From Desulfurococcaceae archaeon AG1 (GTDB lineage Archaea; Thermoproteota; Thermoprotei_A; Sulfolobales; AG1), in the NCBI GenBank assembly GCA_003116855.1, contig BEWT01000016.1:52183-116182 (forward strand): a stretch of 64,000 nucleotides of DNA, given 5' to 3'. Every line of letters starts with the position of its first letter. The stretch's first letter is position 1. Below are positions 4,335 to 7,861 of this stretch, piece after piece. Under the pieces are notes generated by a model. That model was given only the letters and a program-made list of their open reading frames with translations, did no database searches and was not told the DNA's origin. A program made the position numbers and the translations under genes.

Positions 4335-5084
4335 TCAGAGATCATGGGTTTTAGAGGCTTTTTCATACCTCAACTTCTTATCCTCATACTCGTCTCTTCT
4401 CATCACCACCCTTGCCGGTATACCCATAACAACCATATCGTCTGGTACATCTCTAGTCACTATAGAGCCTGCTGCGACTACCGCCCTCTTTCCTATCCTA
4501 ACACCGGCTATGATCGTTGAGTTTGCTCCTATAACTGCGCCCTCCTCTACTATGGTTTCAACAAGCCTCCTACTAGGGGGATACTTATCGTTAGTGAACA
4601 CAACCCTCGGACCTATGAACACATTATCCTTTATCACAACCATCGAGGGTATATATACTCCTGACTGTATACTTACACCACTACCTATAACTACATGCCC
4701 ATCCACTATGGTACCGCTTCCTATCAACGTATTATCCCCAACACGACTATCCTCTCTTATCAACACATGATGCCCCGTCCTAACCCTATCCCCGATATAT
4801 ACTCTCTCATAGATCACCACATGCGATCTTATAACGCACCAACTGCCAATCACAGCCCCATTACCTATATCAACATCTCCGATTTGGAGATAATGTGGCG
4901 CTCGGGTCTCTTCATAAGCTGGGTTTTTATTGTATAGATACATCTTCTCCAAGGTCTCTTTCGATGGGTAGCCAATAATAGAGTATCCTCCTATATAGCT
5001 TTTATCACCTATCCTCGACTCGCCATAAATGATCGCTGTTCCCTCCACGATAGCATTACCCACCGAAGCTTTCTTCGAGATCAT
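4335..5084 (-). CDS. Left-handed beta-helix (hexapeptide) acyltransferase
   Basis: The 249-residue protein is almost entirely hexapeptide-repeat turns ([LIV]-G-x4), as in VIGSWCVI, YIGDRVRTG, RVGDNTLIG, FIGPRV and VIGANSTIIAG, ending with the GSIVTRDVPDDMVVMGIPAR segment typical of sugar O/N-acetyltransferases of the WbbJ/WlbB/PglD group. Such enzymes act as trimers and transfer acetyl groups to nucleotide-linked sugars. A role in surface glycan or N-glycan sugar synthesis is likely; the exact acceptor cannot be read from sequence. It is divergent from the Ced-like pair, with 49 bases between the start codons. Confidence 0.8.
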   Translation of the reverse strand: MISKKASVGNAIVEGTAIIYGESRIGDKSYIGGYSIIGYPSKETLEKMYLYNKNPAYEETRAPHYLQIGDVDIGNGAVIGSWCVIRSHVVIYERVYIGDRVRTGHHVLIREDSRVGDNTLIGSGTIVDGHVVIGSGVSIQSGVYIPSMVVIKDNVFIGPRVVFTNDKYPPSRRLVETIVEEGAVIGANSTIIAGVRIGKRAVVAAGSIVTRDVPDDMVVMGIPARVVMRRDEYEDKKLRYEKASKTHDL

Positions 5085-5133: not shown

Positions 5134-5412
5134 ATGGATCTGGTATCCTTTGTTAGGCAACTCACAGTCCAGGTTATGGTTGTAGCGTGGGGGATCTTCA
5201 TACTCACCTGGATCGTTGGCTGGGCTCTCAGAGGATCGCCAATACCTCTCACAAGGATCAAGAAGACAGGGCACTCGCTAATAGAAGACGCTGTTTGGGC
5301 CGCCTTTTGGCTGGCAATGGGTGGGACAGTGTTTTCCCTAATAACATATATAGTATCACAGATAGGGATCCCAGCGCCTCCACCACCTGTAAACACAACC
5401 ATAGGGGGCTAG
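5134..5412 (+). CDS. cedA1: CedA1-like small two-helix membrane protein
   Basis: Ninety-two residues with two hydrophobic helices (about 8-30 and 48-72) joined by a short basic loop, RGSPIPLTRIKKTGHSLIED, and a proline-rich end. This is the architecture described for CedA1 of the crenarchaeal exchange of DNA (Ced) system, a VirB2-like pilin subunit. The following gene begins with a homologous helix-loop-helix (LGSPLPFPSVKRIGVILMKD), which supports the assignment because CedA1 and CedA occur as neighbours. ATG at 5134 follows a strong GGGGGTGA. The VirB4/HerA-type partner CedB is not in this window. The match is by remembered architecture and context, not by search. Confidence 0.65.
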   Translation: MDLVSFVRQLTVQVMVVAWGIFILTWIVGWALRGSPIPLTRIKKTGHSLIEDAVWAAFWLAMGGTVFSLITYIVSQIGIPAPPPPVNTTIGG

Positions 5413-5426
5413 CATAGGGCTGCCCA

Positions 5427-6791
5427 ATGATCCAAGTAAGCCAAGCACTAGAGCTCTCATTCTATCTAGGCTTGTTGAACTACGTGGTAGGAGCTCTGCT
5501 TCTAGGTAGCCCCCTTCCATTTCCAAGCGTGAAAAGAATAGGTGTTATTCTTATGAAGGATGCGATGGTGATCTGGATCCTTGCATCATCATTCACATTA
5601 ATACTCAACCTGCTAAGCTATATAAGAGACGCTCTTGGCCTAAACTGGACTGATCTCAGTATATGGCTAACAGGCCTAATGATCAATATAACCAGCCTGA
5701 TGGGGATTCTAAGAACACTCTCATCAATGCTGGGCCCGATCTCACCTTATGTAGCACCAATAATCTCCAACCTAGTCTCGCTTCTCTCAACCTCTCTTCT
5801 AAGCGTGCTAGCACTCCAGATCTTGAGCCTGATAGTTCGTACAAAAGCTCCAGACTTGATAGCTATAGGTATTCTGATATACTCAATACCGATGGGTTTT
5901 TTCAAAAGAGCAGGATCGATCCTTATCTCCTTCGCAATAATATTCTCAATAGCCCTCCCAGCAATGCCGATGTTCACAGCAATGTTTCTACCAGGGTTAG
6001 GGCAGATCTCCAGCAATAGCTATCCACATCCAACGATCCTTGTAAAAGATCTAACTGGAGGTGTTTTGGGCGATTCCTTACTACATATATACCAAACACC
6101 CGAGAAAACGCCAGGAAGCGAGATTGCCATAGTACCTGTTGATGAATATGGGCTAGCCCAGCTAAACATAACCCCAGGGCTTCCGGCTAATAGAGACTAT
6201 TATTTCTCCCTAGAGATGTTCGGATGGATGTTCTACTCAAGCTCAACAATAAAACCCGGGATCGAGTGCATAGTGTCTCCCTGTAGATATGAGATAACAA
6301 TAGACGGTATACTTGCTTCTGACTCCCCCTATATATTGATCCACACACCACAGTCTCTAACAACATATGTAGTTGTGAAGGACGCCGAAAACGGGTATTT
6401 TAATATAACGATAAGCCTAGCAAGTAAATCAACCCTCATAATAACAATACCGGTCTACACAGTGTTAGAGGAGGTTCTAATCGATGGGAAACCCGTTTCC
6501 TGGGATGAAAGAAGGTCTTGGAACTGGGCTGGATTGCGGGGATATGACTACCACGCATTACTTGAAGCAGGAGTCCATACAGTAGAGCTGAGATATGTGA
6601 AGGGATCACCATCAAAGCCATTATTACAGCAATATATCTACTATAATATCCAGCAAGAAGATCTATCATCCATATTCTCAAACATAATCCTGATACTCTT
6701 CGCGTCAACAGTCTTCCCCACAGTATATCTAACACTGCTCGTAATGGCCACCTATTCCCTAGCAAGATTCATAGAGAAAGGGTTTAGGTAA
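5427..6791 (+). CDS. cedA: CedA-like polytopic DNA-import membrane protein with extra ectodomain
   Basis: This 454-residue protein starts 14 bases after the CedA1-like gene. The first ~195 residues hold about six hydrophobic segments and begin with a copy of the CedA1 helix-loop-helix motif. CedA is the polytopic core of the crenarchaeal DNA-import apparatus and is usually nearer 260 residues with six or seven membrane helices. Here, residues of roughly 200-400 form a soluble beta-rich region with VKDLTGG and several aromatic strands, with a Cys pair in ECIVSPC, before a final membrane helix (about 418-445). That region probably faces outward, and an Ig- or carboxypeptidase-regulatory-like fold is possible. 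The enlarged middle is unusual for the family as I know it. Confidence 0.6.
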   Translation: MIQVSQALELSFYLGLLNYVVGALLLGSPLPFPSVKRIGVILMKDAMVIWILASSFTLILNLLSYIRDALGLNWTDLSIWLTGLMINITSLMGILRTLSSMLGPISPYVAPIISNLVSLLSTSLLSVLALQILSLIVRTKAPDLIAIGILIYSIPMGFFKRAGSILISFAIIFSIALPAMPMFTAMFLPGLGQISSNSYPHPTILVKDLTGGVLGDSLLHIYQTPEKTPGSEIAIVPVDEYGLAQLNITPGLPANRDYYFSLEMFGWMFYSSSTIKPGIECIVSPCRYEITIDGILASDSPYILIHTPQSLTTYVVVKDAENGYFNITISLASKSTLIITIPVYTVLEEVLIDGKPVSWDERRSWNWAGLRGYDYHALLEAGVHTVELRYVKGSPSKPLLQQYIYYNIQQEDLSSIFSNIILILFASTVFPTVYLTLLVMATYSLARFIEKGFR

Positions 6792-6814: not shown

Positions 6815-7861
6815 CTACATAACAGATCCTCGTTTCTTCCACATAGCCGGATACACGTTGGGAGGCATGATAACCCTGCTTACCTTCACCGCAATACCTT
6901 TATCCCTCAGAACCATCTCTTCACCACTCATCTCAGCAATACCTATAGCCACTAACTCGCCTTTTACTGTAAAGAGGGCTACAAGATCTCCTTTTGTTAT
7001 AGCCCTATTAACCATACTCACCCCAGGGACAGCCAACATAGCCCCGTGCGCTATAGAGTCTACAGCACTATTCCTGATAATAATCTTAGGTAAGTGTGAT
7101 ACGGAGTATTCTACTGGAAGTACGTATCTTCTCATGAGGCTCTCATCTCCCTTTCTATATAGATGCATAGCTTCGGATAATCTGTGGAGAGATACTAGTG
7201 TCTCATCCTCTCTAAAGGGTCCAGTGGCTATTCTCCTTAGCTCAGCCATGTGGGCACCTACCCCGAGGATCAAGCCTATGTCGTGGCAGAGTTTTCTGAT
7301 ATATGTTCCGGGATCGGTTTTAACCCTCATGAGAACCGATCTTCCGTCGATTTCGAGGATCTCTATCTCATGGATCCTCCTCTTTCTCAACGATCTCTTG
7401 ACAGAGGATCTAAGGGGTGGTCTCTGATAGATCTCTCCCACAAAAAGCGATATGGTTCTCTCCAGCTGTTTCTGTTCGACATCCTTGTGAATCCTCATCA
7501 AAACCACATATTCTTTAGAGGTGTGTGTTACAACACCAATAACCTTTGTTGCCTTTTCAAGAGCTATGGGGAGGACACCAGAGACGCCTGGGTCCAGTGT
7601 TCCCGCATGCCCTGCCTTCGAAACATCAACGATCTTTTTAACCCATGCCGAGACCTCATGGCTTGTTGGGCCTGGGGGTTTATCCAGGTTAATAACCCCT
7701 AACTCTAGATGCATTCTAGCCGGTCTCTCCCATGGATAGGTGCCATATTCTGCCTCCTCTTCCTCATGCCTCACAAGATACTCACTAGCAACGCCTCCTC
7801 TCATGTCAAGCCTCTTTATAAACTCCAAACCTTTACCCATCCGGCTTTCGCCACACGGCAA
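6815..7861 (-). CDS. cbf5: tRNA/rRNA pseudouridine synthase Cbf5
   Basis: Archaeal Cbf5 (TruB family, dyskerin homologue) is the catalytic subunit of H/ACA guide RNPs and can also make pseudouridine 55 in tRNA. The catalytic aspartate lies in GHAGTLDP (D90 in the longest frame), preceded by INLDKPPGPTSHEV; motif III GTYIRKLCHDIG follows. The C-terminal ~85 residues, including AHGAMLAVPGV and KGDLVALFTVKGELVAIG, are a PUA domain that binds the ACA end of the guide. The long frame begins MPCGESRM; starting at the eighth residue (MGKGLEF) is equally plausible. It is followed in the same direction by the C/D-box RNP proteins. Confidence 0.93.
   Translation of the reverse strand: MPCGESRMGKGLEFIKRLDMRGGVASEYLVRHEEEEAEYGTYPWERPARMHLELGVINLDKPPGPTSHEVSAWVKKIVDVSKAGHAGTLDPGVSGVLPIALEKATKVIGVVTHTSKEYVVLMRIHKDVEQKQLERTISLFVGEIYQRPPLRSSVKRSLRKRRIHEIEILEIDGRSVLMRVKTDPGTYIRKLCHDIGLILGVGAHMAELRRIATGPFREDETLVSLHRLSEAMHLYRKGDESLMRRYVLPVEYSVSHLPKIIIRNSAVDSIAHGAMLAVPGVSMVNRAITKGDLVALFTVKGELVAIGIAEMSGEEMVLRDKGIAVKVSRVIMPPNVYPAMWKKRGSVM

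Follow-up and report, generated by a model that had tools for sequence, protein, structure and literature searches.

An adjacent pair of genes in Desulfurococcaceae archaeon AG1 is almost certainly the cedA1-cedA pair of a Ced DNA-import system, the means by which crenarchaea acquire DNA from one another, and its cedA encodes a long form of the channel protein carrying a predicted ectodomain of about 210 residues. Judged from the homologues compared, the long CedA is very probably the ancestral form, the ectodomain having been lost at least twice, in the Sulfolobaceae and in an Ignisphaera-like genus, and the Sulfolobus CedA appears to be a shortened form of a protein that is usually long in all other sampled families. 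Ced genetics has been done in the Sulfolobales, whose CedA is without a domain of nearly all other sampled CedAs, and should this domain influence the base of the pilus or the choice of partner, models based on Sulfolobus would overlook it. The pair lies in the window, meaning the whole 64,000-nucleotide stretch analysed (G000:C16:52183-116182), and homologues of CedB and CedD are encoded on the same contig.

The first gene, cedA1 (5134..5412, + strand), codes for a 92-aa VirB2-like pilin homologue with two hydrophobic helices. The protein scores over the NF041797 equivalog cut-off (124.4 bits against 100, model positions 1-75 of 75) and is, in sequence, a clear homologue of the solved Aeropyrum pernix CedA1 pilin, 8dfu, which matches its residues 2-74 in phmmer with E 1.3e-24. 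The second gene, cedA (5427..6791, + strand), follows on the same strand after 14 bp, both open reading frames being confirmed at these positions, and codes for a 454-aa protein that is a VirB6-like channel or platform by published homology. The CedA model NF041796 matches it with E 3.3e-28 over model positions 1-191 of 259, and the score of 99 bits is far under the equivalog cut-off of 330 bits; on this comparison the protein is a long-form homologue and, by the cut-off, not a member of NF041796. Its membrane core groups with other CedAs in the core tree described below. A CedA1-like helix-loop-helix occupies CedA residues 4-54 (5436..5588, + strand), with helices modelled at 4-27 and 33-54, and the loop reads RGSPIPLTRIKK..LIEDA in CedA1 and LGSPLPFPSVKR..LMKDA in CedA. 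A match of the CedA1 model to residues 6-67 of CedA (E 1.6e-6) shows that the repeated hairpin reflects genuine homology; the CedA model in turn matches CedA1 (E 1.1e-8), and a profile of long CedAs matches 8dfu over positions 5-69 (E 9e-11). The first-pass annotation, made from the letters alone, had proposed both the CedA1/CedA pair and the shared helix-loop-helix, and both proposals held, the former on the NF041797 score, the CedA core match and the adjacency of the genes, the latter on cross-matches beyond chance. Neither of the two contrary outcomes that it had named beforehand, a lack of CedA/CedA1 profile similarity or a genome without cedB, occurred. A CedA1-like hairpin in CedA generally has already been noted (PMC9905601).

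The membrane core of CedA, residues 1-187 (5427..5987, + strand), is helical in the AlphaFold2 model, and the last transmembrane helix, residues 412-451 (6660..6779, + strand), identified from the model and from conservation, is followed by a basic tail. This helix is also kept in short CedAs, and its Y434 is invariant in alignment A1 and present in at least 90% of alignment A4. Published descriptions give CedA six or seven transmembrane helices and CedE five (PMC9905601, PMC11868833). Between helices 157-187 and 413-451, residues ~198-408 are predicted to be all-beta, and the ectodomain lies there on the evidence of the model and of sequon density (residues 198-408; 6018..6650, + strand); in each of the 28 relatives aligned its length falls within 198-230 aa. 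With 29 sequences as AlphaFold2 input the whole CedA was modelled at pLDDT 88, and the ectodomain modelled alone, as the first-pass annotation had recommended for this region, gave two tandem beta-sandwich domains at pLDDT 92.4 and pTM 0.88. Domain 1, residues ~200-280 (6024..6266, + strand), is transthyretin/CarboxypepD_reg-like on the basis of PF13620 and thread-filament matches, and domain 2, residues ~284-395 (6276..6611, + strand), has predicted strands at 287-391 and a near-invariant W367. N-glycosylation sequons occur at ~1.5 per 100 aa in the ectodomain against 0.07-0.17 in the membrane core, the net charge of the ectodomain is negative, most ectodomains have an even number of cysteines (that of the window protein has C281 and C286), and clusters of basic residues occupy both the C-terminal tail and the loop ahead of the preceding helix (155-162); together these features predict that the ectodomain lies outside the cell.

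The likenesses of the ectodomain are to widespread surface folds. No known Pfam domain was found in the window CedA, and PF13620 (CarboxypepD_reg) was found in 2 of 28 long CedAs, at best with 7.7e-6. The Sulfolobus acidocaldarius thread filament (7pnb/8rzl) gave a profile match to domain 1 (E ~8e-4) and an archaeal surface-layer protein a weak one (E 3.3). Foldseek with the ectodomain alone returned weak yet consistent matches of the pilin type, best among them the tandem beta-sandwich pilins BcpA (1.7e-4) and RrgB (9.9e-4), and more weakly the S. acidocaldarius S-layer proteins SlaA/SlaB (E 3.4e-3, prob 0.98), with transthyretin (1.5e-2) and 3e8v (TMt 0.69) also matched, while the whole CedA model gave nothing under 1e-3 and was uninformative. 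The predicted model points to a tandem CNA-B/transthyretin-like surface module at the level of fold only, and the ectodomain matches, at E 1e-4 to 1e-3 with low whole TM, reflect a common beta-sandwich and so say little about role.

The distribution of the long form was surveyed with NF041796 in 147 genomes of the order, 123 of which contain a match to the CedA model. The matches in 18 of the 147 genomes are over the cut-off, and each of these is a frame of 253-348 aa in family f11, which is taken to be the Sulfolobaceae on the grounds that its members score over a cut-off based on Sulfolobales, as does the control genome of Sulfolobus acidocaldarius. In the other families of the order the open frames are mostly 450-545 aa and the match to the CedA model ends near position 190. 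The profile A1, built from 28 long CedAs, aligns over its whole length in f1-f10 and also in f12-f14, families outside the order that were used as outgroup, and stops at ~190 in f11; the exceptions are a few contig-end fragments or ambiguous cases (e.g. G218). The survey of related genomes that had been suggested for the segment located it in these families, and the first-pass description of an enlarged CedA was not supported: an ectodomain of ~210 residues is usual for CedAs other than those of the Sulfolobaceae, and the inference is that it is ancestral. Its roughly 200 beta-rich external residues before the last helix do exist, as a prediction, but they are not extra relative to most CedAs. 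Compared with the 454-aa AG1 protein and its ~210-aa ectodomain, Sulfolobaceae CedAs measure 252-267 aa and have a linker of 14-20 aa where the ectodomain would be. Two short CedAs of the Ignisphaera-like genus, L047 (281 aa) and L202 (~285 aa from the likely start, on the same contig as L141), have an intact core and a linker of 46-51 aa. The frames without ectodomain outside the Sulfolobaceae are L047:3135-3980 and L141:4863-5843, the start of the latter being uncertain, and the same genus also has a long-form relative (L201).

In the core tree (237 columns, FastTree LG, midpoint-rooted) the short CedAs of the Sulfolobaceae form one clade (support 1.0) nested among long forms, and a second short group lies inside f3 (f3 support 1.0) beside long-form f3 sequences. 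Every CedA from the outgroup families f12-f14 is of the long form. Nested short forms and long outgroups make an ancestral ectodomain with two losses the simplest history, and the natural CedAs without it, in the Sulfolobaceae and the Ignisphaera-like genus, show that the ectodomain is separable from the channel core. A gene fusion created by sequencing error was rejected, because dozens of unrelated genomes have the domain uninterrupted and at the same length.

Mean pairwise identity among long CedAs is 17% in the ectodomain against 32-37% in the membrane core, and the length of the ectodomain is steady at 198-230 aa despite this low identity. In close pairs with measurable dS the dN/dS of the ectodomain is ~0.05-0.30, usually 2-3x the value for the core. 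Change is quickest in the second domain, and in eight close pairs the differences are spread along the whole ectodomain. Positive selection was considered and not seen, no close pair having dN/dS near 1, nor did the eight close pairs show a focal hypervariable stretch of the kind found in F TraG. By these sequence measures the ectodomain is under purifying selection on its structural shape, and the spread of variation and the surface- or pilin-type fold agree somewhat better with a structural part than with a surface used in recognition.

The best explanation of the whole, with about an even chance of being right, is a chromosomal Ced module for DNA import in which CedA has its ancestral long form. 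CedA1 would polymerise into a VirB2-like pilus, CedA would provide a VirB6-like membrane platform and pore under it, and CedB and CedD would act as VirB4-like motors pulling DNA in. The ectodomain, lying between the last two helices, would be kept on the outer side of the membrane, where its copies would form a fixed collar round the base of the pilus in the space beneath the S-layer, replacing the separate stalk and arch proteins of bacteria (VirB5, VirB8). The analogy is with R388, in which VirB6 is a C5 platform for VirB2 pili and the VirB5 stalk and VirB8 arches stand above it (PMC9259494); CedA and CedA1 are the published counterparts of VirB6 and VirB2, and VirB3 and VirB8 are absent in archaea (PMC11868833). 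A collar around the CedA1 pilus base is the preferred, if tentative, reading of the ectodomain, its chances somewhat short of even. We infer the oligomeric ring, the pilus contact, the collar role and the direction of DNA flow in AG1. The two lineages without the ectodomain imply that it is not essential for DNA import in all hosts, and if it does form a collar, the genetically tractable model is without a machine part that most crenarchaea have.

The ectodomain might instead serve recognition or docking, binding a partner surface, a pilus or an S-layer glycan to choose or hold a mate; this is rather unlikely, and less likely than the collar. Evolution 2-3 times faster than that of the membrane core and a fold like that of surface pilins and of adhesins such as RrgA and Als would agree with it, as would the existence of extended VirB6-type proteins with such roles, the periplasmic part of VirB6-like F TraG acting in mating-pair stabilisation and entry exclusion (PMC9797247). 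The Ups pili, the recognition organ of the Sulfolobales, are missing outside the Sulfolobales (PMC11868833), and the family without the ectodomain, through loss, is precisely the Sulfolobaceae, but the second loss falls in the Ignisphaera-like genus. The lack of a focal hypervariable stretch in the eight close pairs, the lack of dN/dS near 1 and the very constant length speak against this role and are unlike the specificity region of TraG. Less probable again, and unlikely, is an ectodomain that anchors the channel to the S-layer or other proteins of the envelope without being directly involved in DNA transfer or in the pilus. The Foldseek similarity to SlaA/SlaB, the weak profile match to a surface-layer protein and a sugar acetyltransferase gene that divergently adjoins the locus in several families speak for such an anchor; the structural likeness is to a very common fold, however, and the Sulfolobaceae have an S-layer yet do without the ectodomain.

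An insertion or gene fusion acquired late and by AG1 alone, the reading implied by the first-pass annotation, would account for the absence of the ectodomain from the best-studied CedA, that of Sulfolobus, but is highly improbable given that the ectodomain occurs in nearly all sampled non-Sulfolobaceae CedAs, outgroups included, and that short forms are nested; a lineage-specific insertion was rejected on the distribution and the core tree. The collar reading can be extended to an ancestral VirB6-like pore with its own two-beta-sandwich collar in place of stalk and arch, lost in the Sulfolobaceae at about the time when Ups pili and CedA2 were gained, with a third ATPase, described below, as a further motor of that machine, hitherto unrecognised. 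It is doubtful that this combination holds in all its parts.

The remaining Ced genes of AG1 lie away from the pair. The first-pass annotation had asked for cedB and CedA2 in the genome, and of these cedB was found, together with CedD. CedB, ~115 kb from cedA, was recognised by NF041017 on its ATPase frame (1.1e-74, below the 700-bit cut-off), and CedD, ~140 kb from cedA, by NF053655 (3.4e-80, model positions 41-525 of 527, below the 600-bit cut-off). CedB is encoded in two frames, an N-terminal domain and an ATPase (L077:4205-5738; C16 ~172-174 kb), whose ends overlap at a junction with a T6 run. A sequencing error was rejected as the cause of this split, which recurs in the family relatives G015, G026 and G004 and so is a natural fission. 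The gene directly 3' of cedA is cedB in the majority of the other families, at 56 of 75 related loci, its identity having been checked in examples from four loci, and in the relatives of the window cedB lies away from the cedA locus. Downstream of cedA in the window is a convergent gene for a Cbf5 pseudouridine synthase (6815-7861, - strand), not cedB. Divergent from cedA1 is a gene for a NeuD/PglB-like hexapeptide sugar acetyltransferase (4335-5084, - strand), copies of which, 46-56% identical, adjoin cedA in f1, f13 and one f3 lineage. For CedA2, NF041798 has no match in the AG1 genome; among 78 genomes CedA2 occurs only in Sulfolobaceae and adjoins cedA where positions are comparable. It has been described as not conserved between species (PMC9905601), and its absence from other non-Sulfolobales is as published.

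Relative to the Ced system of the Sulfolobales (CedA, CedA1, CedA2, CedB, CedD, CedE), AG1 has in common the CedA1-CedA pair, the hairpin in both proteins and homologues of CedB and CedD. It differs in its long CedA, in the CedA2 that was not found, in a CedB that is split and far from cedA, and in CedA, CedB and CedD scores well under the Sulfolobales-based equivalog cut-offs. The A. pernix CedA1 pilus (8dfu; PMC9905601) has a homologous pilin, the AG1 system being known here from genes alone. The pilin and channel of the Ted system of Thermoproteales (TedC, TedA, TedB) have structural and profile homology to Ced (PMC9905601), although no recognisable sequence similarity between the two systems is reported, and a VirB4 search of same-class genomes without CedA gave no clear Ted locus. 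A platform or pore role like that of VirB6 in bacterial type IV secretion systems has also been proposed for CedA, the homology resting on published HHpred of TedA; no solved VirB6 chain appeared in hmmsearch or among the Foldseek matches listed. Some VirB6-type proteins, such as F TraG, also have large extracytoplasmic domains, but the CedA ectodomain differs from TraG* in where it lies, which is between the last two helices, and in its fold of two beta sandwiches. The main texts of PMC9905601 and PMC11868833 do not mention the ectodomain; their supplements or the 2016 original may note the length.

A third ATPase of the HerA/VirB4 type, which differs from both CedB and CedD and has several transmembrane segments in its N-terminal part, was encountered in AG1 itself (L006:784-2475, contig C6, four segments) and at L119:717-2672 (seven segments), with further copies at L060:4743-6665 and L142:1-1698. 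Its gene lies ~2-7 kb from cedA in genomes of f4, f7, f8 and f9 and 13-14 kb from cedA in f10 and other f9 genomes. The Ced export motor has been left open, with reference to 'unknown ATPases' (PMC11868833), and the third ATPase is, as a lead only, a candidate for an unrecognised Ced motor. Directly 5' of cedD on the same strand is a gene for a 225-aa TFIIB-type zinc-ribbon protein (L078:7251-7928; C16 ~197 kb), possibly a TFB3-like damage regulator, and a zinc-ribbon gene also precedes cedD in three family relatives (L154, L157, L161).
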